A stretch of 64,000 nucleotides of DNA from assembly GCF_023006325.1 (NCBI RefSeq), contig NZ_JAINDF010000002.1, positions 124,001 through 188,000 of the forward strand, in the 5' to 3' direction. Below the pieces are notes generated by a model. The model did no database searches. It was not told where the DNA came from and was given only the letters and a program-made list of their open reading frames with translations. Source of the DNA: Kordiimonas marina (GTDB taxonomy: Bacteria > Pseudomonadota > Alphaproteobacteria > Sphingomonadales > Kordiimonadaceae). Shown piece by piece: positions 9,723-56,633 of the stretch. Each line of letters opens with the position of its first letter. The first letter of the stretch is position 1. Both the position numbers and the translations under genes were made by a program.

Positions 9723-9780
9723 GTCTTGTGACCCGGTCCTGTGGCAAGCTGCAAAAATTATATCAAATGAGGATCTCCCG

Positions 9781-10525: not shown

Positions 10526-10533
10526 ATGATTTC

Positions 10534-10571: not shown

Positions 10572-10674
10572 CATGTCCGCCCTATGTCCGCAGTTTTGGG
10601 TTGGGAGAGCTCTTTAGCTATCCAAGCGGAACATGGCGAGGTTTTTCCTGAAACGGCATTTTGGGAAGGGCCGG

Positions 10675-12579: not shown

Positions 12580-12587
12580 GGCCGGGG

Positions 12588-13253: not shown

Positions 13254-13286
13254 GGCGCAGCCCATCAGTAAGAAGGATTCGTGACC

Positions 13287-24804: not shown

Positions 24805-25488
24805 TCACCCCGCGCATGGCAACATCGCTTTCAGGTCCCGGATGGCGTTTCTCAGGAACTCGGCATCATTGATCAGCAGGGTATCCCCATCCTTGAGGAA
24901 GTATCCCGCGGCGCACAGGTCGCCCAAGGTCCGGCTGACCTGGGCTTTCGACAGGCCGGAAACCAGGCTCAAGTGCGTTTGGGTCATGGCAAGTGGAATT
25001 GGTTCGCCTGCAACAGGCATAATATTGTTGCCGTGGGTCCTGATCCAGATTTCGGCGATCAGGGCGGTCAGTTTAGCGGTGGCATCGCCAAAATTGGTGA
25101 CTGTCCCGCGCATCCCGCAGTGGAGGACATTCTGTCTCAGCGCCCTCAGGATCCATTCCTGGTTCTCGGGGCGGTCCTGAAGCCACGCCAGGATGGTTTT
25201 CCGCGGGACGGACGTTACCGTTGTTCTGGAAAGCGCGATCATGTCCACCTTGATCTCGCCTGGGATCAGGGCGAAGGCAGGGGCATAGTCCCCCGGGACA
25301 AAGATTTGTGGGCAAAAAATGCGGCCGCAGGGCAGATTGGCCGTGGTGGCCAGACAGCCTTCGCGGACAAGATAGAGCGACCCAAGCGGTTGATGCCGTG
25401 AGGCAATCTTTGACCGCTTTTCGAAACGCTCGATCCGTCCAGAATCCGTTATGACACGTTCTAGAGTAATGTTCCGCTCGTCCAGCAT
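24805..25488 (-). CDS. Crp/Fnr family transcriptional regulator
   Basis: 227 aa. The N-terminal effector domain is of cNMP-binding type (SLYLVREGCLATTANLPCGR, then FVPGDYAPAFAL) without an N-terminal Fe-S Cys cluster. The C-terminal winged helix has TQTHLSLVSGLSKAQVSRTLGDLCAAGYFL; the recognition helix (KAQVSRTL) differs from the FNR ExxSR pattern, so a different operator is expected. Palindromes within 95-160 bp upstream are candidate autoregulatory sites. Confidence 0.88.
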   Translation of the reverse strand: MLDERNITLERVITDSGRIERFEKRSKIASRHQPLGSLYLVREGCLATTANLPCGRIFCPQIFVPGDYAPAFALIPGEIKVDMIALSRTTVTSVPRKTILAWLQDRPENQEWILRALRQNVLHCGMRGTVTNFGDATAKLTALIAEIWIRTHGNNIMPVAGEPIPLAMTQTHLSLVSGLSKAQVSRTLGDLCAAGYFLKDGDTLLINDAEFLRNAIRDLKAMLPCAG

Positions 25489-34282: not shown

Positions 34283-35542
34283 TTAAAGAACGCCCGGCCG
34301 TATGGGCAGCCAGTCCACCAGCGTTCCGGCGGGCAAACAATCCGTTCCTTCGGGCAAGATGAGCCAGGCGTTACTGGCGGCAAACGGCCGTGTCTGGAAG
34401 GACTGCTGGCATGTATCCGGCGTGGCGGACACCATGCCATCGTCATCGACGCTTACAGTCCCCATCAGGAAGGCTGTCTTATCGGCAGGGCCTTTGCAAT
34501 CGGCGGCCAGCCGCGCCTTCCGGGGAGCTTCCGGCGTATCGCCGGTGAGCGCGCGCACGAAAGGATAGACAAAGACGCGGAGCGCGAGCGCGGTCGAAAT
34601 GGGGTTGCCGGGGAGGCCGAAAAAATAGCGGCCATCGGGCAGGACCGCGAACAGCACCGGTTTGGCGGGCTTGATCCGCGCTTTATGGAAGATGATGTCG
34701 GCGCCCATGTCTTCCAGCACGGGCCGGACGAAATCATACTGACCAGCGGAAATGCCCCCGGTGGAGAGAATAATATCCGGACCCTGGTCGAGCGCCTTTT
34801 CAAGGGCTGCCGCAAAATCTTGCGGCGTATCTCGGACAGTCATTGCGCCTTTGATTTCCATCCCGAGCTCGGGCAGGTGCCGTTCGCCATAATGCCGCGT
34901 GGCGTTGTAGATATGGCCGGGTAAAAGGGGCGTGTCGAAATCGTCGGTAATTTCCTGGCCGGTCGAAATCCAGAAGGCCGAGGGCGCCTGATAGACCGGC
35001 ACCCGGCCCAACCCGACCGCGCTCAGGAGCGGGATATGCGCGCTGGTCAAGCGGGTTCCTGCGGCCAGCAAGGGCTTTCCGGCCTCAATATCCTGACCGA
35101 CGCGGCGGACATGCTGGAAGGCGGGATAAGGCGCCGTGAAGGTTAGCTCTTCATGATTCCAGCTGGCGGCTTCGACCGGCAGGACCGTGTCGGCGCCTTC
35201 GGGCAAGGGCGCGCCGGTCATGATCTTGACGGCGGTACCGGGATGAAGGTGTGACAGCTCGGCACTGTCACCGGCGATACTGGCGCCCGCAACGCGCAAC
35301 ACAATGGGGGATTCTGCTGTCGCACCCGCAACATTTTCGGCGCTGAAGGCGAAACCGTCCATGGCCGAATTGTCGAAGCTCGGAACCGAGATGGGTGCGG
35401 CAAGGAACCGGGCCAGCACCTTGCCGACGGCATCAGCGGGGGACAGATTCACGAATGGAAGGGGCCGCGCCTCGCCGAGCAGGATATCGAGGGCGTGATC
35501 ATAGCCGATCATGCTTCTGTTTACATGGCAGCAGTCAGGCAT
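34283..35542 (-). CDS. moeA: Molybdopterin molybdenumtransferase
   Basis: 419 aa from the ATG at 35542, chosen for GGGGAG 7 bp upstream and overlap with the stop of the preceding gene. Domain signatures: PSFDNSAMDGFAF (N-terminal), IMTGAPLPEGADTVLPVE, the MoaB/MPT-binding STGGISAGQYDFV, and FGLPGNPISTALAL. It inserts molybdate into adenylylated molybdopterin to make the Mo cofactor needed by NarG. Last intact gene of the moa/moe run driven from the FNR box at 37037. Confidence 0.95.
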   Translation of the reverse strand: MPDCCHVNRSMIGYDHALDILLGEARPLPFVNLSPADAVGKVLARFLAAPISVPSFDNSAMDGFAFSAENVAGATAESPIVLRVAGASIAGDSAELSHLHPGTAVKIMTGAPLPEGADTVLPVEAASWNHEELTFTAPYPAFQHVRRVGQDIEAGKPLLAAGTRLTSAHIPLLSAVGLGRVPVYQAPSAFWISTGQEITDDFDTPLLPGHIYNATRHYGERHLPELGMEIKGAMTVRDTPQDFAAALEKALDQGPDIILSTGGISAGQYDFVRPVLEDMGADIIFHKARIKPAKPVLFAVLPDGRYFFGLPGNPISTALALRVFVYPFVRALTGDTPEAPRKARLAADCKGPADKTAFLMGTVSVDDDGMVSATPDTCQQSFQTRPFAASNAWLILPEGTDCLPAGTLVDWLPIRPGVL

Positions 35543-35870
35543 CGTAAATCTCCCCATCCGTGGCGGAGCGGGGTTTTCGGTCCCGCCGGATATCGACCTG
35601 AAAGGCCACTTCCAGGTCTCCGATCGTTGTCTGAAGGCCTTCGCGCGTGGTGCGTTCGATAAGCTCCGACGCGATCATGTGACGGGGGACCGTGAGATTG
35701 AGGCCGTCGAGCTGCATCTCGGCTTCCGCTGTGGCGGCGACGGTCCAGCGCAGCGATGTCATGCCCGGCGGTGTGAATTCGGCCGCGAGCTCTCGCCCCA
35801 TGACCAGGGCGGTGGCCTCGGCGCGGGCAAGCTTGAACAGGATTCTCTTTTCTTCAAGGCGCAGTTTCAC
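35535..35870 (-). CDS. Unknown small protein between moaA and moeA
   Basis: 111 aa from the GTG at 35870, chosen because GGAGGA lies 8 bp upstream; earlier in-frame Met codons belong to antisense of moaA. It begins KLRLEEKRILFKLARAEATAL and is mostly beta with a hydrophobic centre (GLNLTVPRHMIASELIERTTREGLQTTIGDLEVAFQVDI). No signal peptide, membrane segment or metal motif. Operon position (15 bp after moaA, overlapping moeA by 8 bp) points to Mo-cofactor assembly or nitrate-reductase maturation. No family could be named with confidence. Confidence 0.7.
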   Translation of the reverse strand: MKLRLEEKRILFKLARAEATALVMGRELAAEFTPPGMTSLRWTVAATAEAEMQLDGLNLTVPRHMIASELIERTTREGLQTTIGDLEVAFQVDIRRDRKPRSATDGEIYDA

Positions 35871-35884: not shown

Positions 35885-36862
35885 CTAGCCGCCGATGGCG
35901 GAAAGGTTGCGGGTCATGCCGGTCACACCGTCGGCGAGCCTGTGACCCGCTGTCTTGCGGCGGACGGCTGCGATAAGGCGGTCCCGGAACTCGGTCATCT
36001 GGTCGTCGGACTGAAGCCACTGGCGCATGGGAATGCCGAAATCACCGAACAGACACAGATGCAGTTTGCCGAGGCTTGAAAAACGAAGGCGGTTGCAACT
36101 GGCGCAGAAATCCTTGGAATAAGGCGCGATCAGACCCACGCTGCCTTTGAAATCCGGATGGACGAAATCATTAGCCGGGCCGGCATCCGCAGCCTTCAGC
36201 TTCGGCGTCCAGCCCCCGGCCGCGAGTTTTCCGGTGATAACATCGGCGTCAATATGATGGTCGCGGAAGAAAGCGGCATGGTCGCCGGTTTCCATGAGCT
36301 CAATGAAGCGCACATCAAGCGGCCTGTCCTTGGCGAGCGCAAGAAAGCCATCGATCTCATGGTCATTGACCCCCTTCATCAGGACGGCGTTCAGCTTGAC
36401 GGTTTCGAAACCGGCCTCAAAGGCAGCGTCGATACCGCGCATCACTTCGAGGCAGCGGTCATGCCCGGTGATGGCATGGAAGGTTGCGGGGTCGAGGCTG
36501 TCGAGGCTGACATTAAGGGCCCTGATACCGGCAGTCGCCCAGGTTTGTGCGCGCTTTTCCAGCCGGTAGCCATTGGTGGTGAGCGCCAGCTTCTGGATGC
36601 CGGGCACGGCGGCAATGGTTTCGGCGATGGCGTCGAAATCCGGCCGGATCGTTGGCTCGCCACCGGTGAGACGGATTTTCGTAAGCCCGAGCGACGCAAA
36701 CACTGTCGCCGCGCGCCGAAGCTCATCCAGCGTCAGTGGTCCCGGCCCCGCGCATTTTTTAAACCCGTCCGGCAGGCAGTAGCTGCAGCGGAAATTGCAG
36801 GCCTCGGTGAGCGAGAGCCTGAGATAGCGAAATGTCCGGCCGAAGCCATCCTCAAGCTGCAC
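35885..36862 (-). CDS. moaA: GTP 3',8-cyclase (radical SAM)
   Basis: 325 aa from the GTG at 36862, selected by AAGGAG 7 bp upstream; the TTG at 36880 overlaps that site. The radical-SAM cluster is CNFRCSYC (C-x3-C-x2-C). The second [4Fe-4S] site is in FCASCNRLRFSSLGKLHLCLF. The protein ends in the family style, GG (SAIGG). First step of molybdopterin synthesis, using GTP. MoaC, MoaB, MoaD and MoaE are not in the window. First gene of the moaA-unknown-moeA operon. Confidence 0.95.
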   Translation of the reverse strand: MQLEDGFGRTFRYLRLSLTEACNFRCSYCLPDGFKKCAGPGPLTLDELRRAATVFASLGLTKIRLTGGEPTIRPDFDAIAETIAAVPGIQKLALTTNGYRLEKRAQTWATAGIRALNVSLDSLDPATFHAITGHDRCLEVMRGIDAAFEAGFETVKLNAVLMKGVNDHEIDGFLALAKDRPLDVRFIELMETGDHAAFFRDHHIDADVITGKLAAGGWTPKLKAADAGPANDFVHPDFKGSVGLIAPYSKDFCASCNRLRFSSLGKLHLCLFGDFGIPMRQWLQSDDQMTEFRDRLIAAVRRKTAGHRLADGVTGMTRNLSAIGG

Positions 36863-37036
36863 AAGCGGTCTCCTTTCCAAATACGAGAGGCCGGTCCGTT
36901 TCCGGTTCCGACCCGGCAGCCGTTCGGCTGCGGCCTGACCGCCCTATCCTTTGTTCCCTTGCGGGGGACGTAGGCGGCCAGGCTTCGGAGCTCAGCAGTC
37001 TGAGAGAATCAGTAACCCGGCGGAGAAGGGACCAGC

Positions 37037-37050
37037 TTGATTGAGATCAA
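37037..37050. promoter_or_regulatory. Perfect FNR-type box upstream of moaA
   Basis: TTGAT-TGAG-ATCAA matches the FNR/Dnr consensus at all ten positions. It lies about 175 bp upstream of moaA and just past the stop codon of the NIT-Crp gene. Confidence 0.85.
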
Positions 37051-37058: not shown

Positions 37059-38663
37059 TCAGGTCCCGGTCAGAATTTCGATATCGCCATATTCGGGGTG
37101 CGGGCAGGCGTCGTCGCCGACGCGCGGACATTGGCTGGCGAGATCGGCATCGCAGAAGCCGCACAGGGCGTAGGCATCCGGCATCTTGAGCCGGTCGCTT
37201 TCGACCTCGAACCCGTCGTTACGAAACTTCTGCAGCGTGCGCGAGAATGTTTCCGGCCGCATATCAAGATAGGCGGCAATGATGGATTTCTCATACGGCA
37301 GGTGGATGGTCATATCCGGGCTTTTCTGGTTGATCGCCAGCCGGAGCAGGAACCAGCCCACGCGTTCCTGCACAGTACGGAGCCGCGATAGTTCAATCTG
37401 CTGCACCAGGCGCTGGGAACGGAGCGAAACGGCATTGAGCATATTGACCGCAAGCCGCGGATTGGAATGCAGGCGCTGGCGGATGATCGGCGCCGGGATG
37501 GACAGCAGAAGCGCCCGTTCGACCACCTGGGCGTTCACGGGTGCGGGCACGTTGAGGAAGACGGCGGACTCGAGAAGCGTTTCGCCAGCGCCAAGCATCT
37601 GCAGGATCGCCTCCTCGCCGCTTTCGAGGCCGTTATAGACCTTCACCCAGCCTTCGAGAACGATATAGAGACGAGGCGCAGGCTCGTCGCGCAGGAACAG
37701 GAGCTTGTCCTTGCCGTATTCGCGTACCTGGGCGAAGCTCAGGAGCTCATCCAGTTCATTGTCTTCAAGGCCCGAGAAGGTCGGCAACGATTTCAGGAAC
37801 GGCCGGAAATGACCGACATGGCTGATCATCGCCCTGGTTTGACCCGTTGATGCCGCTTCCTTTAGTCCTGCGCCGCAGAGTGTCTCGACCAGGCGTGCCT
37901 CGACCGTGTGCAGGCAGTCGATCATGCGGGTCAGGAGGTCGTACCAGGTTTCCCCTGAATAGCGCTCGACCTCATGGGGCGGGGCGCCTTCTTCCAGAAG
38001 CGTGTTGATGTCCTTGAGGGCATCCATGTCGCGGTCTTTCACCACGTCCTGAAGGAGCGCAATCTGTGACGGCGACGCCAGGGCCTTGAAGGTTTCGAAA
38101 TAGGTTTTCTGTTCCGCGATCAGGGCGACGAACCGGTCGCAGAATTCCTGGTTTCGGAAGGCGAAAGTATGGAACCCGCGGGCGCCGAGCGCGCGTTCCA
38201 TCCCGACGCGCTCCTTCCATTGCAGGAAATTGGCGTAAGCCGAAACCAGTGCGGAGTTGTGCCCAGGTTCACGTTGCGCCAGCTCGATCATGGCATCGAT
38301 CGTCGGGACGGTCAGGCTGAAGGTATAGCTGTTGAGCGCTTGGGTGTAGCGGACGGACAAGAGCCTGATCTTGTCACGAAGCTTGCCGATGTCGTCATAC
38401 TTTACGAAGAGATATTTGAGCCGACCGGCGAACCCTGACGGCAACACGGCCATGACATCTTCGCGCGCCTGAAAGGCGCGCAGATCTTCGACCGCAGCAT
38501 CGACAGCCTGATTCTGGTCCTGAAAGCGCTCCGCAAACACTTTTCCCAGGCTATCCAGGAAAAGCCCTGCACAGCCGCGCTCGCGCTGGATTTGATGAAC
38601 CACTTCCCCCAGCTTGTGCAGAAGCTCCTGCACCAGCTTGGTTTTTTCCGTCGTTGCTTCCAT
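37059..38663 (-). CDS. NIT nitrate-sensing domain fused to Crp/Fnr regulator with Cys-rich tail
   Basis: 534 aa from the ATG at 38663 (AGGGAAG upstream). Residues about 10-270 match the NIT (nitrate/nitrite-sensing) helical domain: HQIQRERGCAGLFLDS, AVDAAVEDLRAF, then NFLQWKERVGMERALGARGF and LIAEQKTYFETFKAL. Residues about 288-400 are a cNMP-type beta-roll (LYIVLEGWVKVYNG, LGAGETLLESAVFL). The winged helix (about 425-495) has LPYEKSIIAAYLDMRPETFSRTLQKF, with the FNR-type recognition triad E471, S474, R475. A tail with Cys at 501, 504, 512 and 520 follows. Predicted to be a one-component cytoplasmic nitrate-responsive activator of the neighbouring FNR boxes. Divergent from narK1. Confidence 0.85.
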   Translation of the reverse strand: MEATTEKTKLVQELLHKLGEVVHQIQRERGCAGLFLDSLGKVFAERFQDQNQAVDAAVEDLRAFQAREDVMAVLPSGFAGRLKYLFVKYDDIGKLRDKIRLLSVRYTQALNSYTFSLTVPTIDAMIELAQREPGHNSALVSAYANFLQWKERVGMERALGARGFHTFAFRNQEFCDRFVALIAEQKTYFETFKALASPSQIALLQDVVKDRDMDALKDINTLLEEGAPPHEVERYSGETWYDLLTRMIDCLHTVEARLVETLCGAGLKEAASTGQTRAMISHVGHFRPFLKSLPTFSGLEDNELDELLSFAQVREYGKDKLLFLRDEPAPRLYIVLEGWVKVYNGLESGEEAILQMLGAGETLLESAVFLNVPAPVNAQVVERALLLSIPAPIIRQRLHSNPRLAVNMLNAVSLRSQRLVQQIELSRLRTVQERVGWFLLRLAINQKSPDMTIHLPYEKSIIAAYLDMRPETFSRTLQKFRNDGFEVESDRLKMPDAYALCGFCDADLASQCPRVGDDACPHPEYGDIEILTGT

Positions 38664-38793: not shown

Positions 38794-38807
38794 TTGATAT
38801 GGATCAA
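38794..38807. promoter_or_regulatory. Perfect FNR-type box between the NIT-Crp gene and narK1
   Basis: TTGAT-ATGG-ATCAA matches the consensus at all ten positions. Its centre is about 75 bp upstream of narK1 and about 137 bp from the divergent regulator start, so it could serve either direction. Confidence 0.88.
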
Positions 38808-38875: not shown

Positions 38876-40186
38876 GTGACAACCGAACCGGCAACCCTTG
38901 GAGAGAAGCGACAGGCCCTTACGGCCAGTACGCTCGCCTTCACCGTCTGCTTCGCCGTCTGGACGATCTTTTCCATCATCGGGATCAAGATCAAAAGCCA
39001 GCTCGGCCTTAACGACACCGAATTCGGCCTTCTGGTCGCAACCCCCGTGCTCACCGGCTCCTTGAGCCGATTGTTCCTCGGTATCTGGTCTGACCAATAT
39101 GGCGGACGCATCGTCTATGTCAGCCAGATGCTGTTCACGGCCGTGGCGGCTTTCCTGCTGACCAAGGTCACAAGCTACGAAATGTTCCTCCTCGCCGCGC
39201 TCGGTGTCGGTTTCGCCGGTGGCAGTTTCGCGGTCGGCGTCGCTTATGTCTCGCGCTGGTACCCGAAAGAGCAACAGGGCACGGCCCTTGGTATCTTCGG
39301 CATGGGTAACGTCGGCGCGGCCGTCACCAACTTCGGTGCTCCCTTCCTTTTGGCGGCCATGGGCGGTCGGTGGCAAGGTGTCGCCCAAGTCTATTCGATC
39401 ATACTGGCGATCACGGCGGTGCTGTTCTTCGTGTTGACCAAGGATGACCCGGTTCACGCGGCCAACAAGGCGTCCGGTCACAAGCATCCGGGCTTCTTCG
39501 AACAGCTTGAGCCTCTGAAGAACCTGCAGGTCTGGCGCTTTTCGCTCTATTACTTCTTCGTCTTCGGTGGCTATGTCGCCTTGGCCCTGTGGCTGCCGCG
39601 CTACTATGTCGGCGCCTATGGGCTGGACCTGAAGACCGCCGGTATGCTGGCGGCGGCCTATGCCCTGCCGGGCAGCATCTTCCGGGCCCTAGGCGGCTGG
39701 CTGTCCGATAAATATGGCGCCCGGACGGTGATGTACTGGACCTTCATCGCAGCTGTGATCTGCACCTTCATCATGTCCTACCCGGCCACCGACTATACGG
39801 TCGCCGGCATCAAGGGCCCGATCGCCTTCAACATCACCATCCCCTTGGGGGTCTTCGTGGGCCTCACCATCGTGCTCGGCTTCTTCATGTCGCTCGGCAA
39901 GGCGGCCGTCTACAAGCATATCCCGGTCTATTACCCGAACCATGTCGGCTCGGTCGGCGGCACCGTTGGCCTGATCGGCGGCTTGGGCGGCTTCTTCCTG
40001 CCTGTGACCTTCGGGATCATGAACGATGTCATCGGCGTCTGGACCAGCTGCTTCATGCTGATGACCATACTGGTCGCCCTCGCCCTTACCTGGATGCATT
40101 TCGCCATCCGGCGGCTTGAAAAGAGACGCATCCCCGAACTGCGCGGACCGCGCAATCTGCCCGAACTCGAAGGCCTCAAAGGCTAG
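38876..40186 (+). CDS. narK: NarK1-type nitrate/proton symporter (MFS)
   Basis: 436 aa from the GTG at 38876, chosen because AGGAGG lies 5 bp upstream; the ATG at 38831 has no such site. Twelve hydrophobic segments are expected. Nitrate-signature sequences are GVGFAGGSFAVGVAYVSRWYPKEQQGTALGIFGMGNVG and, in the second half, GTVGLIGGLGGFFLPV. It is placed with NarK1-type carriers by its short loops and by the NarK2-like gene behind it. It imports nitrate with protons to start respiration. First gene of the nar operon. Confidence 0.9.
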   Translation: MTTEPATLGEKRQALTASTLAFTVCFAVWTIFSIIGIKIKSQLGLNDTEFGLLVATPVLTGSLSRLFLGIWSDQYGGRIVYVSQMLFTAVAAFLLTKVTSYEMFLLAALGVGFAGGSFAVGVAYVSRWYPKEQQGTALGIFGMGNVGAAVTNFGAPFLLAAMGGRWQGVAQVYSIILAITAVLFFVLTKDDPVHAANKASGHKHPGFFEQLEPLKNLQVWRFSLYYFFVFGGYVALALWLPRYYVGAYGLDLKTAGMLAAAYALPGSIFRALGGWLSDKYGARTVMYWTFIAAVICTFIMSYPATDYTVAGIKGPIAFNITIPLGVFVGLTIVLGFFMSLGKAAVYKHIPVYYPNHVGSVGGTVGLIGGLGGFFLPVTFGIMNDVIGVWTSCFMLMTILVALALTWMHFAIRRLEKRRIPELRGPRNLPELEGLKG

Positions 40187-40190
40187 GTCC

Positions 40191-40217
40191 ATGGGCCCCG
40201 CAAGCGCGGGGTCCCAT
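40191..40217 (+). other. Intercistronic stem-loop between narK1 and narK2
   Basis: ATGGGCCCCGC and GCGGGGTCCCAT form a near-perfect stem with an AA loop and one bulge, 4 bp after the narK1 stop. There is no T run, so an RNA-processing or stability element is more likely than a terminator. Confidence 0.6.
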
Positions 40218-40232
40218 ACCCGGAGAAAAACA

Positions 40233-41876
40233 ATGCATGACACTAACGCAAAAACCGAGCTCAAAATTACGGGCCATGACATCAGGGGCTGGAACCCGGA
40301 TGACGATGCCCAGTGGGAAGCCCAGGGCAAGAAGATCGCGACCCGCAATCTGTGGATTTCGATCCCGTCGCTCCTGTGCGGTTTCGCGGTCTGGCTTTAC
40401 TGGGGCATCATCACGGTTCAGATGCTGAACCTGGGCTTCCCCTTCAGCCAGGGACAGTTGTTCACCCTCTCGGCGATCGCCGGCCTGTCGGGAGCGACGC
40501 TTCGTATCCCCAGCAGCTTCTTCATCCGGATCGCGGGCGGGCGCTATACCATCTTCCTGACCACTGCACTCCTGATGATCCCGGCTGCGGGCACCGGCTT
40601 CCTGCTTCAGGATCCGAACACGCCCCTGTGGCAGTTCCAGCTGATGGCGCTCCTCAGCGGCTTCGGCGGCGGTAACTTCGCATCCTCCATGTCGAACATC
40701 AGCTTCTTCTATCCGAAGAAGGTGCAGGGCTATGCCCTCGGCATGAACGCGGGCCTCGGCAACTTCGGTGTCACCACCATGCAGATTGTCGTGCCGCTCG
40801 TGATGACCTTCGCGCTGTTCGGCGGCGCGGGCCGGGTGCTCAAGAACACGTCAGGCACACTGATCGGCAAAATTCCGGCGGGGACGGAGACCTATATCTT
40901 CAACGCCGGTTGGGTCTGGCTGTTGTTCCTGGTGCCGCTGGCCTTCGCCGGCTGGTTCGGCATGAACAATATCCGGGATGAGCATGTCTCGCCCGATGCC
41001 GGTGCGGCGCTACCTGCCTTCGGCAAAATCCTCGGTATGCTCGGGATCGGCCTCGCCACAGCGGCCTTCGGCCTGTGGCTGATGCTGCCGGCCGCCATCG
41101 GCGGCTCCGGGCTCGAACTCAACAAATGGATCGTCCTGCCGATCGTGATTGCGCTCACGCTCCTCTTGATGAAGCTGATCCCGGGCAAGATCCAGGCGAA
41201 CCTGAAGCGCCAGTTCCAGATTTTCGACAACAAGCACACCTGGGCCATGACCATCATCTATACGATGACCTTCGGCTCCTTCATCGGCTTCTCGGCCGCC
41301 CTGCCGCTCGCCATCAAGGTGGTGTTCGGCTACCAGCACCTGATGGTGGACGGCGCCATGACCCACACGACCGTCAACCCCAACGGTCCGTCGGCTCTGA
41401 TGTTCGCCTGGATGGGCCCGTTCATCGGCGCGCTCATTCGCCCGATCGGCGGCATGTGGGCCGACAAGATGGGTGGGGCCAAAGTGACCCAGATCATCAG
41501 TGTCGTCATGGTCGCTTCTGCGCTCGGCGTCGCCTACTTCATGAAGGCGGCTTACGGCTCCGCGACCCCGGAACAGTTCTTCTATCCGTTCCTGGTGCTG
41601 TTCATCATCCTGTTCGCGGCCACCGGCATCGGCAACGGCTCGACCTTCCGCACCATTGCCATGGTGTTCAACAAGGAACAGGCGGGTCCCGTGCTCGGCT
41701 GGACCTCGGCGGTGGCAGCCTATGGCGCCTTCATCATCCCCAAGGTGTTCGGTGAAGAGATCAAGGCCACCACGCCTGAGTATGCCCTCTATGGCTTCGC
41801 GGTCTTCTACACCGTCTGTGTCCTGATCAACTGGTGGTTCTACCTGCGCAAGAACGCCTACGTGAAAAACCCTTGA
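40233..41876 (+). CDS. narK: NarK2-type nitrate/nitrite antiporter (MFS)
   Basis: 547 aa from the ATG at 40233 (GGAGAAAA upstream). NNP-family motifs: GFGGGNFASSMSNISFFYPKKVQGYALGMNAGLGNFGVTTMQ, and later GIGNGSTFRTIAMVFNKEQAGPVLGWTSAVAAYGAF. The long insertion in the second third is usual for the NarK2/NarU group. Predicted to exchange nitrate for nitrite across the inner membrane. Pairing with NarK1 as two separate genes mirrors the fused NarK of Paracoccus. NarG begins 28 bp downstream. Confidence 0.9.
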   Translation: MHDTNAKTELKITGHDIRGWNPDDDAQWEAQGKKIATRNLWISIPSLLCGFAVWLYWGIITVQMLNLGFPFSQGQLFTLSAIAGLSGATLRIPSSFFIRIAGGRYTIFLTTALLMIPAAGTGFLLQDPNTPLWQFQLMALLSGFGGGNFASSMSNISFFYPKKVQGYALGMNAGLGNFGVTTMQIVVPLVMTFALFGGAGRVLKNTSGTLIGKIPAGTETYIFNAGWVWLLFLVPLAFAGWFGMNNIRDEHVSPDAGAALPAFGKILGMLGIGLATAAFGLWLMLPAAIGGSGLELNKWIVLPIVIALTLLLMKLIPGKIQANLKRQFQIFDNKHTWAMTIIYTMTFGSFIGFSAALPLAIKVVFGYQHLMVDGAMTHTTVNPNGPSALMFAWMGPFIGALIRPIGGMWADKMGGAKVTQIISVVMVASALGVAYFMKAAYGSATPEQFFYPFLVLFIILFAATGIGNGSTFRTIAMVFNKEQAGPVLGWTSAVAAYGAFIIPKVFGEEIKATTPEYALYGFAVFYTVCVLINWWFYLRKNAYVKNP

Positions 41877-41904: not shown

Positions 41905-44900
41905 ATGAGTAACTTTATCGACAGGCTCAGCTACCTGACGCAAACGCCGGAGACCTTCTCGAACGGGCACGGCATCACCACCGACGAAAGCCGGACCTGG
42001 GAACGCGGCTACCGCGGCCGCTGGGCGCACGACAAGGTCGTACGTTCCACCCACGGGGTCAATTGCACGGGCTCGTGCAGCTGGAAAATCTACGTCAAGA
42101 ACGGCCTGGTCACCTGGGAAACCCAGCAGACGGATTATCCGAAAACCCGGACCGACCTGCCGAACCATGAACCGCGCGGTTGTGCCCGGGGCGCCAGCTA
42201 CAGCTGGTATCTCTATAGCGCCGCCCGGCTCAAATACCCGATGATCCGCAGCCGCCTTCTCGAGCTCTGGCGCAAGGCCAAGGCCGAGCATGGCGACCCG
42301 GTCGACGCCTGGGGCAGCATCGTCTCCGACCCCAAAAAGGCGCGGGAATACAAGAAAGTCCGCGGTCTCGGCGGGTTCGTGCGCGCCGACTGGGATGAGG
42401 TCAACGAAATCATCGCCGCCAACAATATCTATACCGCCAAGGAATTCGGCCCCGACCGGATCATCGGCTTCTCGCCGATCCCGGCCATGTCGATGGTCTC
42501 CTACGCCGCCGGCAGCCGCTACCTGTCGCTGATCGGTGGTGTGTGCATGTCCTTCTATGACTGGTACTGCGACCTGCCGCCTTCTTCGCCGCAGACCTGG
42601 GGCGAACAGACGGACGTGCCCGAAAGCGCCGACTGGTACAATTCGGGCTATATCATCGCCTGGGGCTCCAACGTGCCGCAGACCCGCACGCCCGACGCTC
42701 ACTTCTTCACCGAAGTCCGCTACAAGGGCACCAAAACCGTGTCGGTGACGCCGGATTATTCCGAGGTTGCCAAGCTGACTGACATCTGGCTCAACCCGCG
42801 CCAGGGCACGGACAGCGCCATGGCCATGGCCATGGGCCATGTGGTGCTCAAGGAATTCCACGTTGCCGGCAAGTCGGAATATTTCGACGACTATTGCCGC
42901 ATGTATACCGACATGCCGTTCCTGGTCCGGCTCGATGAGCGCGACGACAAGCTGATCCCGGCCCGCCTGCTCAGGGCGTCCGACTTCGCGGATGGCCTCG
43001 GTGAAAGCGAGAACGCAGACTGGAAAGCCACCATCCTGGACGGCAACACCGGCAAGATCTGCGTGCCCAACGGCACTATCGGCTCGCGCTGGGACAAGTC
43101 CAAGAAATGGAACCTTGAGCTCAAGAATGTCGCCGATGGCAGCGATGTCTGGCCGAGGGTGTCGCTGGAGAAGGTGGTCGATACCATCGAAGCGGTTGCT
43201 TTCCCTTATTTCGGCAATCTGGAGCATGAGCAGCCGATCTTCCAGCATACCGACCACGAAAGCGTCCTGGAGCGTAACATTCCGGTCAAGACGATCGAGA
43301 CCAAGGACGGCCCCGTGAAGGTGGCCACGGTCTATGACCTGATGGTTGCCAACTATGGCGTCGACCGTGGCTTCGGTGGCGGCAATGTCGCTGCGTCCTA
43401 TGACGACGATGTGCCCTACACCCCGGCCTGGCAGGAGAAGATTACCGGCGTGCCCAGGGACCGGGTTATCCAGGTTGCGCGCGAGTTCGCCACCAATGCC
43501 GACCAGACCCGGGGCCGCTCGATGGTCATTCTCGGCGCTGCCGTCAACCACTGGTACCATATGGACATGATCTACCGCGGCATCATCAACCTCCTGGTGA
43601 TGTGCGGCTGTATCGGCAAATCCGGCGGTGGCTGGGCCCACTATGTCGGCCAGGAAAAGCTCCGCCCGCAGACCGGCTGGCTGCCGCTCGCGTTCGGGCT
43701 CGATTGGTCCCGCCCACCCCGGCAGATGAACTCCACCAGCTTCTTCTATAACCACTCCAACCAGTGGCGCTATGAGAAGCTCAGTGTCGATGAAATTCTG
43801 TCGCCGCTGGCTGATAAGGAAAAATGGGAAAACATCACGCTTCTCGACTGCAACGTGCGTTCTGAACGCATGGGCTGGCTGCCGTCGGCCCCACAGCTAA
43901 ACGTCAATCCTCTTAAGGTGGGGGCCGACGCAGCCGAGGCCGGCCAGAAGGCAAGCGACTATGTGGTGGCAGGCCTCAAGGCCGGCACCATCGGATTTGC
44001 CTGCGAGGACCCGGACGACCCGAAAAACTTCCCGCGCACCATGTTCATCTGGCGCTCGAACATCCTCGGGTCTTCCGGTAAGGGCCACGAATATATGCTG
44101 AAGCACCTTCTGGGGACCCAGCATGGCCTTCTCGGCAAGGACCTGGGCGAAACCGGGGGCCAGAAACCCAGTGAGGTGGTCTGGCACGATGAAGCGCCTG
44201 AAGGTAAACTGGACCTGGTGGTCACGCTTGACTTCCGCATGTCCACCACCTGTGTTTACTCGGACATCGTGCTGCCCTCTGCCACTTGGTACGAGAAGAA
44301 CGACCTCAACACGTCCGACATGCACCCTTTCATCCATCCGCTGACCCGCGCGGTCGACCCGGCGTGGGAAAGCCGCAGCGACTGGGACATCTACCGTGGC
44401 CTTGCCGAGAAATTCTCGGCCCTGTGCGACGGTCACCTGGGGATGGAGCGCGACGTGGTTACCCTGCCGATCCTGCATGACACGCCGGGTGAAATGGCCC
44501 AGGCGCTTGATGTCCGGGACTGGAAGAAGGGCGAATGCGACGCTATCCCCGGCAAGACCATGCCGGCGATCGTCGAGGTGGTCCGGGATTACCCGAGCAC
44601 CTACAAGCGCTTCACGGCCCTTGGGCCGCTCCTTGGCAAGCTTGGCAACGGCGGCAAAGGCATCAACTGGAACACCGACGACGAGATAGAGCTCCTGGGC
44701 CGTCTCAACGGCACGCATATGGAACCTGGTGCCAATGAAGGGATGCCCAAAATCGTGACCGACATTGACGCGGCCGAAGTGGTGCTTTCTCTGGCGCCGG
44801 AGACCAACGGTCATGTCGCTGTCAAATCCTGGGCGGCGCTGGGGAACGTCACGGGGCGTGAGCACACGCATCTGGCGCGGCCGAAGGAAGATGAGAAAAT

Positions 44901-45648
44901 CCGCTTCCATGACATCAAGGCGCAGCCTCGGAAAATTATCAGTTCGCCGACCTGGTCCGGGCTTGAGGACGAGCATGTCAGCTACAACGCCGGTTATACC
45001 AACGTCCATGAACTGATCCCCTGGCGGACGCTCACCGGCCGTCAGCAATTCTATCAGGACCATGCATGGATGCGTGATTTCGGCGAGGGCTTCTGCGTCT
45101 ACAAGCCGCCGGTCAATACCAAAACCATCGCACCGGTGATCGACAAGTTCGCCCGCGGCCACAAACAGGTGACCCTGAACTGGATCACGCCGCACCAGAA
45201 ATGGGGCATCCACTCCACCTATTCCGACAACCTTCTGATGCTGACGCTGAACCGGGGTGGCCCGGTGGTGTGGGTTTCGGAAATCGACGCCCGCAAGATC
45301 GACGTCAAGGACAACGACTGGATCGAACTTTACAACACCAACGGCGCCATCATGGCGCGGGCGGTGGTGAGCCAGCGTGTCCCCGAGGGCATGACCATGA
45401 TGTATCACGCCCAGGAAAAAACCATCAACACGCCGGTCTCTAACACCACGGGCGGCCGCGGCGGCATCCATAACTCGGTCACGCGGGCGGTGGTCAAGCC
45501 GACCCACATGATCGGCGGCTATGCCCAGCTTTCCTACGGCTTCAACTATTACGGCACGGTTGGCTCTAACCGGGACGAGTTCGTGGTCGTACGCAAGGTC
45601 GACAATATCCAGTGGGGCGAAGAAGCCGCCACGACGGCAGCCGAGTAG
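41905..45648 (+). CDS. narG: Membrane-bound nitrate reductase, catalytic alpha subunit
   Basis: 1247 aa, the same length as E. coli NarG. The FS0 [4Fe-4S] ligands are seen in HGVNCTGSCSW and the later PRGCARGASYSW. The Mo-ligand Asp lies in FYDWYCDLPPSSPQTWGEQT, followed by YNSGYIIAWGSNVPQTRTPDAH. bis-MGD binding stretches continue to the end (GYAQLSYGFNYYGTVGSNRDEF). It reduces nitrate to nitrite on the cytoplasmic face with NarH and NarI. No twin-Arg signal is needed in this class. Overlaps of other frames are shadows. Confidence 0.98.
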   Translation: MSNFIDRLSYLTQTPETFSNGHGITTDESRTWERGYRGRWAHDKVVRSTHGVNCTGSCSWKIYVKNGLVTWETQQTDYPKTRTDLPNHEPRGCARGASYSWYLYSAARLKYPMIRSRLLELWRKAKAEHGDPVDAWGSIVSDPKKAREYKKVRGLGGFVRADWDEVNEIIAANNIYTAKEFGPDRIIGFSPIPAMSMVSYAAGSRYLSLIGGVCMSFYDWYCDLPPSSPQTWGEQTDVPESADWYNSGYIIAWGSNVPQTRTPDAHFFTEVRYKGTKTVSVTPDYSEVAKLTDIWLNPRQGTDSAMAMAMGHVVLKEFHVAGKSEYFDDYCRMYTDMPFLVRLDERDDKLIPARLLRASDFADGLGESENADWKATILDGNTGKICVPNGTIGSRWDKSKKWNLELKNVADGSDVWPRVSLEKVVDTIEAVAFPYFGNLEHEQPIFQHTDHESVLERNIPVKTIETKDGPVKVATVYDLMVANYGVDRGFGGGNVAASYDDDVPYTPAWQEKITGVPRDRVIQVAREFATNADQTRGRSMVILGAAVNHWYHMDMIYRGIINLLVMCGCIGKSGGGWAHYVGQEKLRPQTGWLPLAFGLDWSRPPRQMNSTSFFYNHSNQWRYEKLSVDEILSPLADKEKWENITLLDCNVRSERMGWLPSAPQLNVNPLKVGADAAEAGQKASDYVVAGLKAGTIGFACEDPDDPKNFPRTMFIWRSNILGSSGKGHEYMLKHLLGTQHGLLGKDLGETGGQKPSEVVWHDEAPEGKLDLVVTLDFRMSTTCVYSDIVLPSATWYEKNDLNTSDMHPFIHPLTRAVDPAWESRSDWDIYRGLAEKFSALCDGHLGMERDVVTLPILHDTPGEMAQALDVRDWKKGECDAIPGKTMPAIVEVVRDYPSTYKRFTALGPLLGKLGNGGKGINWNTDDEIELLGRLNGTHMEPGANEGMPKIVTDIDAAEVVLSLAPETNGHVAVKSWAALGNVTGREHTHLARPKEDEKIRFHDIKAQPRKIISSPTWSGLEDEHVSYNAGYTNVHELIPWRTLTGRQQFYQDHAWMRDFGEGFCVYKPPVNTKTIAPVIDKFARGHKQVTLNWITPHQKWGIHSTYSDNLLMLTLNRGGPVVWVSEIDARKIDVKDNDWIELYNTNGAIMARAVVSQRVPEGMTMMYHAQEKTINTPVSNTTGGRGGIHNSVTRAVVKPTHMIGGYAQLSYGFNYYGTVGSNRDEFVVVRKVDNIQWGEEAATTAAE

Positions 45649-45659
45649 GAGCAAGAGAC

Positions 45660-47219
45660 ATGAAAATACGTGCACAAATCGGCATGGTCCTGAACCTCGA
45701 CAAATGTATCGGCTGCCATACCTGTTCGGTAACCTGCAAGAACGTCTGGACCAGCCGCGAAGGCGTTGAATATGCCTGGTTCAACAATGTTGAATCCAAG
45801 CCGGGCGTCGGCTACCCGCGCGACTGGGAAAACCAGAAGCGCTGGAACGGCGGCTGGGAGCGCAAGGCCAACGGCAAGATCCAGCCCAAGCTTGGTGGCA
45901 AGTTCCGCCTGTTGGCCAAGATTTTCGCCAACCCGGACCTGCCGGAGATCGACGATTATTACGAGCCCTTCACCTTCGACTATGCCCATCTTCAGAACAG
46001 CCCGGAGGTAAAAACCCCGCCGACCGCGCGGGCGCATTCCATTATCACCGGGCAGAAGATGGAGAAGCCGGAATGGGGCCCCAACTGGGAAGAAATCCTG
46101 GGCGGCGAGTTCGAGAAACGCAGCCAGGATTATAACTTCCAGGGCGTCGAGAAGGAGATTTACGGCCAGTTCGAAAATACCTTCCTGATGTATCTGCCGC
46201 GCTTGTGCGAACACTGTCTGAACCCGACCTGCGTGGCCTCGTGCCCGTCGGGCGCCATCTACAAACGCGAGGAAGACGGTATCGTCCTGATCGATCAGGA
46301 CAAATGCCGCGGCTGGCGCATGTGCGTGTCCGGTTGCCCCTACAAGAAGATTTACTTCAACTGGCAATCCGGCAAGTCGGAGAAATGCACCTTCTGCTAC
46401 CCGCGGATCGAGAACGGCGACCCGACGGTGTGCTCGGAAACCTGCGTCGGTCGTATCCGCTATCTGGGTGTATTGCTCTATGACGCCGACCGGATCGAGG
46501 AAGCCGCCTCCACCGAGGATGAGCAGAATCTCTATGATGCCCAGTGCGGCGTGTTCCTGAACCCGCACGACCCTGAGGTGATCAAGCAGGCCAAAGCGGA
46601 CGGCGTGCCGGACAGCTGGATCAGTGCTGCCCAGCGGTCGCCGGTCTATAAGATGGCGATGGAATGGAAAGTGGCCTTCCCGCTGCACCCGGAATACCGG
46701 ACGCTGCCGATGGTCTGGTACATCCCGCCGCTGTCGCCGATCCAGAGCGCCTACAATGAAGGCAAGATCGCGGGCGATGACATCATGCCGGATGTGAAAA
46801 ACCTGCGCATTCCGGTCAAATATCTCGCCAACATGCTCACGGCGGGTAAGGAAGAGCCGGTGGTCCATGCGCTGGAGCGTATGCTGGCGATGCGCAGCTA
46901 TATGCGCGGCAAAAGCATCGGTGGCCAAGGCAATGTGGATGTGCTCGACCGGGTCGGTCTCGATGAGGCCACGGTCGCGGATATGTACAAGATCATGGCG
47001 CTGGCCGACTATGATGACCGCTTCGTGATCCCGACCAACCACCGGGAATATGCCGGCAAAACCCCATTCGACAATGACATCGCCTTCGAAAGCAAGGCCG
47101 CTTGCGGCTTCAGCTTCGGCAATGGCTGTGCGTCGTCGGCACGGTCCGGCGGCCTGTTCGGTGGCCCGACCCACCATAACACCATGAACGGCAAAGCCGG
47201 CGACGTAAGGAGATCATGA
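45660..47219 (+). CDS. narH: Nitrate reductase beta subunit (Fe-S protein)
   Basis: 519 aa from the ATG at 45660, 11 bp after narG. Four Cys clusters: CIGCHTCSVTCKN; CEHCLNPTCVASCPSG; CRGWRMCVSGCPYKK, where Trp replaces a Cys and so yields the [3Fe-4S] centre; and CTFCYPR with CSETCVGR. Transfers electrons from NarI haem to NarG. The stop overlaps the narJ start (ATGATG). Confidence 0.98.
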   Translation: MKIRAQIGMVLNLDKCIGCHTCSVTCKNVWTSREGVEYAWFNNVESKPGVGYPRDWENQKRWNGGWERKANGKIQPKLGGKFRLLAKIFANPDLPEIDDYYEPFTFDYAHLQNSPEVKTPPTARAHSIITGQKMEKPEWGPNWEEILGGEFEKRSQDYNFQGVEKEIYGQFENTFLMYLPRLCEHCLNPTCVASCPSGAIYKREEDGIVLIDQDKCRGWRMCVSGCPYKKIYFNWQSGKSEKCTFCYPRIENGDPTVCSETCVGRIRYLGVLLYDADRIEEAASTEDEQNLYDAQCGVFLNPHDPEVIKQAKADGVPDSWISAAQRSPVYKMAMEWKVAFPLHPEYRTLPMVWYIPPLSPIQSAYNEGKIAGDDIMPDVKNLRIPVKYLANMLTAGKEEPVVHALERMLAMRSYMRGKSIGGQGNVDVLDRVGLDEATVADMYKIMALADYDDRFVIPTNHREYAGKTPFDNDIAFESKAACGFSFGNGCASSARSGGLFGGPTHHNTMNGKAGDVRRS

Positions 47220-47926
47220 TGAAAAGCCTCAAGATACTCGGCCTTCTGCTGGCCTACCCGACCGATGAGCTTAAGGCTCATGCGGGCGATCTTCGGGCGG
47301 TTCTTGAAGACGAAGCCTTGGTGCCAGCGAAAATTCGCCGCCGCCTGGATGCTTTCATCGGTGAGATCGGCCGCCGGAATATTCTTAATCTGCAGGAAGA
47401 GTATGTCCGTCTGTTCGACCGTAGCCGGGCTCACTCGTTCTATTTGTTCGAGCATGTACATGGCGAAAGCCGGGACCGCGGCCAGGCCATGGTTGACCTG
47501 ACGGACCTTTATAAGCGCCATGGTTTTACGCTCGCCGCGCGCGAACTGCCGGACTATCTGCCCTTGTTCCTGGAATTCCTGTCGGTCCTACCGTTCGAGG
47601 AAGCGCAGGAGCTTCTGGGCGAAACCGCCCATATCCTCGCCGCTATAGGCGCCAAACTGAAGGCGAAGAAAAGCGGCTATGCCCATGTGTTCGCAGCCCT
47701 GGAAGCGCTCACGGGTGTCGAAGTCGACCCGCGCTTTGTCGAACAGGCGGTCGAAGAGGCGAAGAGCGAGGACACCAGCCTCGAAGCACTCGACAAGCAG
47801 TGGGAGGAAACCCCCGCTTTTGACGGTGCGGGTACCCCCGCAGCCTGTGGGGTCTGCCCCCAGGCGACGCATCATCTGGCCAACACCGCCCCGACCGGGG
47901 CGGACCATCAACAAAGTCAGCAATAG
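47216..47926 (+). CDS. narJ: Nitrate reductase assembly chaperone
   Basis: 236 aa, the E. coli length, from ATG 47216 (ATG 47219 is equally possible; AAGGAGAT precedes both). TorD/NarJ-type helical protein: LLAYPTDELKAH, RRNILNLQEEYVRLFDRSRAHSFYLFEHVHGESRDRGQAMVDL and LPDYLPLFLEFLSVLP. It guides cofactor loading of NarG before membrane attachment. The C-terminus is Ala/Gly/His rich and variable. Confidence 0.96.
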   Translation: MMKSLKILGLLLAYPTDELKAHAGDLRAVLEDEALVPAKIRRRLDAFIGEIGRRNILNLQEEYVRLFDRSRAHSFYLFEHVHGESRDRGQAMVDLTDLYKRHGFTLAARELPDYLPLFLEFLSVLPFEEAQELLGETAHILAAIGAKLKAKKSGYAHVFAALEALTGVEVDPRFVEQAVEEAKSEDTSLEALDKQWEETPAFDGAGTPAACGVCPQATHHLANTAPTGADHQQSQQ

Positions 47927-47938: not shown

Positions 47939-48619
47939 ATGACATATCTCAATGATTTCTTCTTCGGCATCTATCCCTATATCGCCATCGTCGTCATGGT
48001 GGGAGGGTCGATCCTCCGCTATGATCAGGACCCCTATACCTGGAAGGCGAGCTCAAGCCAGCTTTTGAGCCGGCGGGGTGTGCGTGTCGGCAGCAACCTG
48101 TTCCATGTTGGTATCCTGCTTCTCTTCATGGGGCATTTCGTCGGGCTTCTGACCCCTGAAGCGCTCTATGAATGGGTGATCACGCCGGCGGCGAAACAAA
48201 AGCTCGCCATGATCGCGGGCGGCATTTTCGGGACGCTCTGCTTTATTGGCATGACCATCCTGATCATCCGTCGGCTGTTTGACCCGCGTATCCGCGCCAC
48301 CAGCCGGCCGGCCGATATCCTGATCCTCCTGATCCTCTATGTGCAGCTGATCCTCGGGCTCGGCACCATTCCGTTTTCGGCGGAACATGCTGACGGTAGT
48401 TCGATGATCGCGCTCGCCGAATGGGCCCAGCATATCGTTACCTTCCGGTCTGGGGCTGCGGCTTACGTGCTGCATGAGCCGGTCGTGTTCAAACTGCATA
48501 TCGTGCTGGGGCTCACTATCTTCCTTCTGTTCCCCTTCACCCGGCTCGTCCATATCCTGTCGGCCCCGGTCAAATACCTGTTCCGGTCCGGCTACCAGAT
48601 CGTCCGCAGGAGGGCCTGA
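47939..48619 (+). CDS. narI: Nitrate reductase gamma subunit (cytochrome b)
   Basis: 226 aa with five hydrophobic helices. Candidate haem ligands are in FHVGILLLFMGHFVG and in VFKLHIVLGLTIFLLFPFTRLVH. It oxidises quinol in the inner membrane and passes electrons to NarH. The start has GGAGGG immediately upstream. The next gene begins 2 bp later. Confidence 0.97.
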   Translation: MTYLNDFFFGIYPYIAIVVMVGGSILRYDQDPYTWKASSSQLLSRRGVRVGSNLFHVGILLLFMGHFVGLLTPEALYEWVITPAAKQKLAMIAGGIFGTLCFIGMTILIIRRLFDPRIRATSRPADILILLILYVQLILGLGTIPFSAEHADGSSMIALAEWAQHIVTFRSGAAAYVLHEPVVFKLHIVLGLTIFLLFPFTRLVHILSAPVKYLFRSGYQIVRRRA

Positions 48620-56020: not shown

Positions 56021-56559
56021 CGTGCCGGGCTCCCGTTCAGAAAGCCTGTCCCGCCTCCGTACCGAACCCAAAGGCTTGTTCCGGCATCGAGGAGCCGCGC
56101 AGCAGGACTAGCCAACGGGCCGCAGGCGGACAGGACCTCAGCTCTCAGGTCTATATCCTCACTGTCGATGGCATTCCGGAGCGTAAGCATGGCTTCGGTG
56201 TCGCCTTCGATGCTGATCTCGCGGGAGAAGAACAGAGCGTCGCCATCCAGCGAGCCTTCGAGCATCTGCACGAGCCGGACAAAATTGCCGCTGATTCGGA
56301 CATCGGCTGGCAGACGACTGTTGCGGGTCGCCGTCGCGGTCACCCTGTGGGCATGAATTTCCAGGAGGAAGCCGATGTCGGAGCCATCGGGCGTGATGAG
56401 AAAATGGTGGCCGACGATCGGCTGCAGCCGCCGGACCACCGCCTGATGACGGCGGCACATATGCCGCGTGATCAGGCTGAGAAGGTGATTGAGCGGCATC
56501 AGCGGCAAGGGGCGTACGAGCAATCTTGCGATCGTGGCCGGGGGCATAATCCGAGGCAT
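56017..56559 (-). CDS. ubiT: UbiT-type SCP2 lipid-binding protein
   Basis: 180 aa from the ATG at 56559 (AGGA just upstream). An SCP2 sterol-carrier fold is recognisable from LQPIVGHHFLITPDGSDIGFLLEIHA, then VRISGNFVRLVQMLEGSLDGDALFFSREISIEGDTEAMLTLRNAI. UbiT binds the hydrophobic quinone precursors in the O2-independent pathway. First gene of ubiTUV-decarboxylase, 60 bp downstream of an FNR-type box. Confidence 0.92.
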   Translation of the reverse strand: MPRIMPPATIARLLVRPLPLMPLNHLLSLITRHMCRRHQAVVRRLQPIVGHHFLITPDGSDIGFLLEIHAHRVTATATRNSRLPADVRISGNFVRLVQMLEGSLDGDALFFSREISIEGDTEAMLTLRNAIDSEDIDLRAEVLSACGPLASPAARLLDAGTSLWVRYGGGTGFLNGSPAR

Positions 56560-56619: not shown

Positions 56620-56633
56620 TTGATGTCAGTCAA
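56620..56633. promoter_or_regulatory. FNR-type box upstream of ubiT
   Basis: TTGAT-GTCA-GTCAA has one mismatch to the consensus (G for A in the right half). The centre is about 67 bp upstream of the ubiT start codon. Confidence 0.75.

Follow-up and report, generated by a model that had tools for sequence, protein, structure and literature searches.

Which regulator would govern nitrate respiration in Kordiimonas marina, and which signals would it read? The question is raised by a 64,000-nucleotide stretch of its genome (contig NZ_JAINDF010000002.1, positions 124,001 to 188,000), called the window here in its full length. In it, a nitrate reductase cluster and molybdenum cofactor (Moco) genes flank the gene nit-crp (37059..38663, minus strand, ATG start codon at 38663), which encodes a one-component regulator of 534 amino acids. 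The NIT-Crp protein joins a NIT domain, a cyclic nucleoside monophosphate (cNMP)-type fold, a Crp winged helix and a tail with four cysteines (Cys4). It is assembled from known domains, and their combination is what is new. NIT-Crp is probably a one-component activator of nar genes that responds to nitrate or nitrite in the role of NarR, with a tail that is somewhat better read as an iron-sulphur (Fe-S) site than otherwise.

Domain architecture and the predicted nitrate site

The initial annotation had proposed a NIT domain, a cNMP beta-roll and a winged helix in one protein, and all three were confirmed by Pfam above their cut-offs. The NIT domain covers residues 20-261 (37881..38606, minus strand; 131.7 bits against a cut-off of 24.9), inside the range of residues 10-270 where it had been expected. 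The cNMP_binding-type beta-roll covers residues 314-399 (37467..37724, minus strand; 56.7 bits against 27.5); its name denotes the fold only and makes no claim on cyclic-nucleotide binding. The HTH_Crp_2 winged helix covers residues 433-500 (37164..37367, minus strand; 37.9 bits against 27). At E ≤ 0.001, Pfam gave only these three domains. The beta-roll together with the winged helix places the protein in the Crp/Fnr superfamily, and its N-terminal part belongs to the NIT family (PF08376) by its score over the curated cut-off and by a NasR-like helical fold. The window protein has no membrane-like stretch, the maximum 19-residue Kyte-Doolittle mean being 1.32. This value rules out a membrane receptor and agrees with the single cytoplasmic protein suggested earlier.

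Conservation was counted over 66 rows, namely the window protein and 65 loci from a scan of named genomes. Of 190 relatives, the scan retained the best 80, which makes 65 a lower bound. It returned 78 loci, 65 of them with a matching open reading frame (ORF) of 429-590 amino acids, from 64 assemblies as judged by contig prefix; L081 and L089 belong to one assembly, and L089 and L103 are cut N-terminally by a contig end. All three Pfam domains (NIT at E ≤ 0.001) were found in 47 of 47 members of alignment A2, which we selected from the 66 sequences, excluding L118 and L120 for a stop inside the match range. A chance or artefactual fusion is ruled out by the 65 loci in 64 assemblies together with strict conservation. 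The reading-head residues E471, S474 and R475 lie within HTH_Crp_2 (37239-37253) and are identical in 66 of 66 rows. The tail, C501-x2-C504-x7-C512-x7-C520, follows at 37104..37163. Both sit at the residues named in the initial annotation, which had given no strand; it is the minus strand. The tail is strictly conserved in 65 of 65 loci: C504, C512 and C520 are present in 66 of 66 rows, C501 in 65 of 66 (one letter is unreadable) and D505 in 65 of 66. Its spacing is C-x2-C-x7-C-x7-C in 61 of 65 loci and has x8 as the last spacer in 4 of 65. The window protein has cysteines at 31, 175, 250, 263, 501, 504, 512 and 520, and those outside the tail are poorly kept (C31 in 34/64, C175 in 13/66, C250 in 1/66 and C263 in 5/66).

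A sequence search of solved structures gave as top matches two Crp-type entries for a single Ruegeria protein, DNR, and NasR 4akk, the last over residues 15-265 (E 1.8e-13). The full-length structure model has a mean predicted local distance difference test (pLDDT) value of 86.9 and a predicted template modelling score (pTM) of 0.58. Therefore, the domains are confident and their mutual arrangement is uncertain. The 50 PDB matches that Foldseek listed for the whole model all have a Crp/Fnr-type structure. The model of the NIT domain alone (pLDDT 91.3, pTM 0.89) is all-helical, and at E ≤ 0.001 it matches nothing in the PDB but the two chains of NasR 4akk, with a template modelling score of 0.77 by query length.

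The NasR alignment and the conservation point to two motifs of a predicted nitrate site, Q26-x-E28-R29-G30 on helix 1 (38574..38588, minus strand) and G154-x-E156-R157 on helix 5 (38193..38204, minus strand). Q26 is kept in 63 of 64 rows (one unreadable), E28 and R29 in 64 of 64, and G154 and R157 each in 65 of 66. According to the cited part of PMC8199190, NasR keeps both nitrate arginines and has one glycine of its G-x-x-R motifs swapped for glutamine. In the alignment, Q26/R29 and G154/R157 coincide with such Q-x-x-R and G-x-x-R. The passage cited from PMC7496416 places E175 and R176 of NasR in the proposed pocket; by our count, corrected for additional residues of the crystal chain, they map to E156 and R157. 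The near-invariant pocket residues of NIT-Crp, as aligned, fit the described NasR nitrate site. The initial annotation knew of no characterised NIT-Crp fusion, and no printed description was found in the open-licence literature searched, subscription papers being mostly outside that search.

Linkage to nar genes and FNR-type boxes

A narK gene stands on the opposite strand within 1.5 kb of nit-crp in the window and in 50 of the 65 loci. The linkage of the fusion to nar genes, suspected from the window cluster, was borne out in this way, with at least 65 loci joining NIT and Crp domains and 50 of them having a divergent narK. Among the 15 loci with no narK within 1.5 kb, six end at most 1.2 kb upstream (L082, L084, L089, L102, L103 and L105), L104 holds part of a narK at the edge of its contig, 4 kb away, and in L129 and L131 a NarR-type gene stands at narK, side by side with nit-crp; the others are taken up below. 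The 65 loci are mostly alphaproteobacterial, with nine gammaproteobacterial by title. The titles include Kordiimonas, Pseudokordiimonas, Emcibacter, Robiginitomaculum, Asticcacaulis, Pseudaquidulcibacter, Hyphomonadaceae and many Alphaproteobacteria, and among the named carriers are Kordiimonas sediminis, Pseudokordiimonas caeni, Asticcacaulis aquaticus, A. tiandongensis, Pseudaquidulcibacter saccharophilus and Exilibacterium tricleocarpae. In L080, two NIT-Crp-like ORFs (9001-10581 and 12092-13660, plus strand) have a porin-like gene between them, and the second copy was left uncounted.

Co-occurrence was followed in 59 genomes including that of the window, partly the same genomes as in the named-genome scan. 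Seventeen are full-length carriers, and the other 16 copies are 33-76% identical to the window's. The narG gene is over its cut-off in 25 of the 59 (in G014 only with pieces summed), and all 17 fusion carriers are among these. Within the family of the window, narG is present in 12 of 29 genomes, exactly the 12 fusion carriers, and the other 17 have neither; this is a raw count that ignores kinship. A class survey of 385 genomes gave 13 that matched at E ≤ 1e-60, with the NIT part in the window's genome and G349 only; in a phylum survey, four of 398 matched at E ≤ 1e-70, with the NIT part in three. Among 72,556 plasmid records, no place was found that covers 80% of NIT-Crp. Overall, the fusion is rare, and its family is well conserved, narrowly distributed and nar-linked. 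At L040 (G014; 1709-8675, minus strand), narG and narK1 are each split into several ORFs and NIT-Crp is one ORF; the splits reflect either decay or an assembly error.

The exact FNR-type pattern TTGATN4ATCAA occurs only twice in the window, once at each end of nit-crp. The box TTGATATGGATCAA at 38794..38807 precedes narK1, its centre lying 75.5 bp ahead of the likely narK1 GTG at 38876. The initial annotation had pointed to this box, which has the perfect consensus and adjoins nit-crp; a second perfect box, TTGATTGAGATCAA, is located at 37037..37050 upstream of the Moco riboswitch and moaA. By our count of the 33 listed sites of the wider pattern TTGAYN4RTCAA, the exact pattern is found five times in the genome (3.68 Mb), two of them in the window. 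Those 33 sites compare with 3 for the reversed control pattern. In the window the wider pattern occurs 3 times, against a mean of 0.15 and a largest value of 1 in 100 shuffles. It is also present in 49 of the 50 divergent-narK loci (-450 to +150 bp of the ORF start); shuffled stretches gave a mean of 0.22 and a maximum of 2 loci in 200 rounds, and a 600-bp in-gene stretch gave 0 of 50. In 48 of the 50 loci, the distance of the box varies with a standard deviation of 14 bp to a fixed narK codon versus 48 bp to a fixed regulator codon. The spacing is fixed to narK and loose to the regulator, and therefore the box appears to serve narK. Where moaA or moeA comes directly after nit-crp, 30 of 40 loci also have a box close to the nit-crp stop; of the 10 that lack it, eight are gammaproteobacterial by title. 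Judged by the reading head and the boxes, NIT-Crp would contact TTGAYN4RTCAA sites.

The narK genes and narGHJI are upstream of nit-crp and divergent from it. The longest ORF of narK1 (38876..40186, plus strand), a major facilitator superfamily (MFS) transporter, begins at 38831, and its likely GTG start at 38876 stands five bases past AGGAGG; its best model is the NarK family TIGR00886 (229.9 bits, below the cut-off of 311.7). A second MFS transporter, narK2 (longest ORF 40116..41876, plus strand), matches NarU/NarK-type models below their cut-offs. The narG (41905..45648), narJ (47216-47926) and narI (47939-48619) genes, all on the plus strand, are over the cut-offs of TIGR01580, TIGR00684 and TIGR00351, respectively, and narH (longest ORF 45612..47219, plus strand) was named by its place between narG and narJ. 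Beyond narGHJI lie a carbonic anhydrase gene, then a porin-like gene and nnrS. Downstream of nit-crp on the same strand are moaA (35885..36880, minus strand; over the TIGR02666 cut-off) and a moeA-like molybdotransferase gene (34283..35557, minus strand). A molybdenum/tungsten (Moco) riboswitch, RF01055 (36854..37002, minus strand; 65.3 bits), is located between the box at 37037-37050 and moaA. The riboswitch and the FNR-type box before moaA would give an apparent two-input control of the cofactor genes. Elsewhere in the window, the third TTGAYN4RTCAA box, TTGATGTCAGTCAA (56620-56633), lies about 67 bp ahead of a small ORF (56017-56559, minus strand), which is followed by two U32-peptidase genes (whole stretch 54120-56559, minus strand) that we take to be UbiU/UbiV-like. 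A protoglobin chemoreceptor (Protoglobin and MCPsignal domains; 21785-23128, minus strand) is a likely oxygen-taxis receptor.

Relation to NarR and other known regulators

At seven of eight plasmid or megaplasmid nar loci, a Crp/Fnr-type ORF stands opposite the narK1 match and immediately precedes narG (Paracoccus denitrificans, P. zhejiangensis, Thioclava, Methylovirgula, Mesorhizobium, Tistrella and Ciceribacter). These were labelled NarR-type by position; the records call them helix-turn-helix or cyclic nucleotide-binding proteins. The Crp protein of the eighth locus (Roseomonas, L158) is a different one, and this locus was excluded from the NarR set. The seven NarR-type proteins have neither a NIT domain nor a C-x2-C tail and are 232-237 amino acids long where annotated (two records are unannotated).

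Trees of the Crp proteins took in 30 of the 65 loci and the window. The careful tree was built from the Crp halves of 61 of 70 rows with an FNR root; L061, L032 and seven tail-less rows were excluded. In it, the NarR-type rows form a clade of their own (support 100/99) that is paired with eight NIT-less Cys4-tailed Crps (92/88). This pair is sister to the NIT-Crp clade (98/92), and the whole set (97/96) is separate from Cys3-tailed Crps and FNR. A quick tree of all 70 rows recovered both this wider group and the NIT-Crp group, each at 92 in the Shimodaira-Hasegawa-like approximate likelihood ratio test, below the 95 mark, but did not settle whether NarR pairs with the Cys4-only Crps. The NIT label needs four changes on the careful tree, with four NIT-less rows nested in the NIT-Crp clade. 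One gain of NIT, and hence a single origin of the fusion, with three losses may explain this, as one reading of the tree. Three of the NIT-less Cys4 Crps lie inside nar clusters (L135, L137 and L139). Others with the same Cys4 tail (L056, L058-L060, L062, L064 and L068) occur in small genomes of the class (1.5-2.9 Mb).

Like NarR of Paracoccus, NIT-Crp has the Crp/Fnr fold and the E-xx-SR head, is divergent from narK in the nar cluster beside narG, and would have a role in nitrate respiration. It differs in its recognisable NIT domain and its Cys4 tail and stands outside the NarR clade, which rules out membership in NarR. In the cited part of PMC8139620, NarR is considered a nitrate and nitrite sensor without an Fe-S cluster; the cited passages assign it no nitrate-binding domain. 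A narR mutant of P. denitrificans did not denitrify from nitrate and recovered on nitrite, as described in the cited part of PMC3541799. With NasR, the NIT-ANTAR antiterminator of Klebsiella (PDB 4AKK), NIT-Crp shares a cytoplasmic NIT domain with its fold and nitrate-site motifs, and the one-component logic. However, the output of NasR is an RNA-binding ANTAR domain in antitermination, whereas NIT-Crp has a DNA-binding Crp domain; ANTAR is not among the Pfam matches, and NasR membership is excluded. NIT chemoreceptors share the sensor domain but have no direct DNA output.

With the FNR of related alphaproteobacteria, NIT-Crp shares the C-x2-C-x7-C motif, the FNR-type site and the reading head. 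The motif is N-terminal in FNR, which has no NIT domain, and C-terminal in NIT-Crp, whose N-terminus is the NIT domain with no N-terminal cysteine motif. Membership in FNR is thereby ruled out. The Fnr of Bacillus subtilis and B. cereus likewise has a C-terminal cysteine cluster instead of the canonical N-terminal one, and no NIT domain. Its extension holds four cysteines, the last three of which (C-x2-C-x4-C) serve with an aspartate as ligands of a C-terminal [4Fe-4S] cluster, according to the parts of PMC3520743 and, for the cluster, PMC12937710 cited here. In NIT-Crp the arrangement is C-x2-C-x7-C-x7/8-C in 65 of 65 loci and a cluster is only putative, so the protein is no Bacillus-type Fnr.

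The genome of the window was searched for other candidate regulators. Six cNMP-domain proteins were listed, namely NIT-Crp, a Cys3-tailed Crp, an FHA-like protein, a channel-like protein and two others from the window, and none of the six joins an FNR-type N-terminal motif to a Crp helix. Of the two others from the window (9162-10010 and 24805-25488, both minus strand), one has no Pfam helix-turn-helix and one is a weak Crp-type regulator. A search of this genome for a PilJ/NarX-type sensor found none, and its other NIT protein is chemoreceptor-like by eye. At E ≤ 1e-10 the FNR model found only the Cys3-tailed paralog, at 51 bits. In many relatives, the best FNR-like proteins reach 90-127 bits, and the 12 top loci all have an N-terminal C-x2-C-x7-C. 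The paralog (L202, G000:C11:328000-347500, gene within 3586-4647, plus strand) ends in C-x2-C-x5-C. Its neighbours are a radical-SAM gene, presumably hemN by its place, and OmpW, FixG, FixI-type ATPase and COX1 genes with TTGA boxes, and three TTGAYN4RTCAA sites lie within 12 kb of it. Surroundings of the hemN/FixG/FixI/COX1 type are the usual place of an oxygen regulator. The paralog is possibly the oxygen regulator of the genus in place of an FNR with N-terminal cysteines. Twelve Crp-only relatives (L021-L032) end in similar three-cysteine tails.

Proposed mechanism and its alternatives

We propose that NIT-Crp acts as a soluble homodimeric activator of the Crp/Fnr type. Its NasR-like NIT bundle would bind cytoplasmic nitrate or nitrite and thereby give the winged helix an allosteric licence. 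The targets of the licensed winged helix would be TTGAYN4RTCAA at the narK-narGHJI promoter and, in the genome of the window, also the box ahead of moaA. Nitrate respiration and Moco genes would thereby be induced by their own substrate, and NIT-Crp would take the role that NarR holds in Paracoccus. The tail, near the recognition helix, may bind an Fe-S cluster labile to O2 or nitric oxide (NO) and would then confer a 'nitrate AND low oxygen' logic on one polypeptide. The view of the initial annotation, in which one protein integrates nitrate with a redox or metal signal and acts on the boxes around it, was supported in part.

Several observations weigh against this proposal. Only 56 of 66 rows have E156. 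The Q..ER and G.ER motifs are also present in NIT chemoreceptors and therefore do not discriminate nitrate binders; they are necessary, not sufficient, and the pocket residues were dropped as proof of nitrate binding. According to the cited part of PMC6381276, the NIT domain of PA4520 bound neither nitrate nor nitrite. The fusion is missing from eight of the 25 narG-positive relatives, and the family co-occurrence, besides its neglect of kinship, includes incomplete genomes (G002, G007, G009 and G010; 76-83%). In L109, L117 and L119, narK is on the opposite strand but 2.6-3.8 kb off, and no narK was found in the available DNA of L108, L121 and L125. In L047 and L049, a NarR-type protein that scores 196-198 bits against that of Paracoccus stands at narK, with NIT-Crp alongside. 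The boxes may instead be sites of the Cys3 paralog or, outside this genome, of FNR. Finally, Fe-S and zinc are indistinguishable from sequence, four regularly spaced cysteines suiting zinc too.

The last point bears on a reading with a considerable, though not a prevailing, chance. It keeps the same nitrate-responsive nar activator and takes Cys4 as a structural zinc knuckle that steadies the winged helix, oxygen control being exerted by the Cys3-tailed paralog. The regular short spacing of the cysteines agrees with it, as does their retention in carriers that have FNR-like proteins, and oxygen regulation could be the task of the paralog with its radical-SAM and FixG/COX1-type neighbours. However, the C-x2-C-x7-C spacing equals the N-terminal motif of the 12 best-scoring FNR-like proteins of the relatives. 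Moreover, the NarR-type proteins of the same wider clade are without a C-x2-C tail, and therefore the fold does not need the tail. The C-terminal [4Fe-4S] of Bacillus Fnr (cited part of PMC3520743) makes the Fe-S reading somewhat likelier than zinc, and not more. By this analogy, the tail may carry an O2- or NO-labile Fe-S cluster, with structural zinc as the main alternative. An extended form of the Fe-S reading, which we hold tentatively, is a nitrate-AND-anoxia gate, in which the NIT domain (nitrate) and a C-terminal [4Fe-4S] cluster (O2/NO) would act on one winged helix and alone do the work of FnrP and NarR or of FNR and NarXL. On this reading, NarR and the nar-linked Cys4 Crps would share one ancestry, and cluster sensing at the C-terminus would be an older device of the clade, lost by NarR.

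Two further explanations concern the ligand and the target. It is quite improbable that nitrate binding has disappeared from the NIT domain or that this domain senses a different ligand, leaving a nar regulator driven by redox or NO through the Cys tail alone. NIT-less relatives with Cys4 tails do lie beside nar genes in L135, L137 and L139, and NIT was perhaps lost about three times on the tree; nevertheless, the pocket residues are near-invariant, and the co-occurrence with nitrate reductase in the family of the window is strict. It is also unlikely that the narK box is held by another Crp/Fnr protein, the Cys3 paralog here and FNR elsewhere, with NIT-Crp only autoregulating or modulating that protein. 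TTGATN4ATCAA is a generic FNR site, the box geometry tracks narK and not the regulator gene, and the excess of genomic sites over the reversed control, with those near the Cys3 paralog, would suit such an occupant. On the other hand, the box adjoins nit-crp in 49 of the 50 divergent loci and also in the window, no FNR was found among the listed cNMP-domain proteins of that genome, and the E-xx-SR reading head is present in every NIT-Crp row.

The cited passages of the NarR literature give no explanation of nitrate sensing by NarR and similar Crp/Fnr regulators. The genomic place of NarR is held here by a relative with a structurally characterised type of nitrate domain, and therefore nitrate sensing of the Crp type becomes directly testable. 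If the tail is indeed an Fe-S centre, a single protein would combine the nitrate and the oxygen control of nitrate respiration, which would also suit a compact nitrate biosensor.

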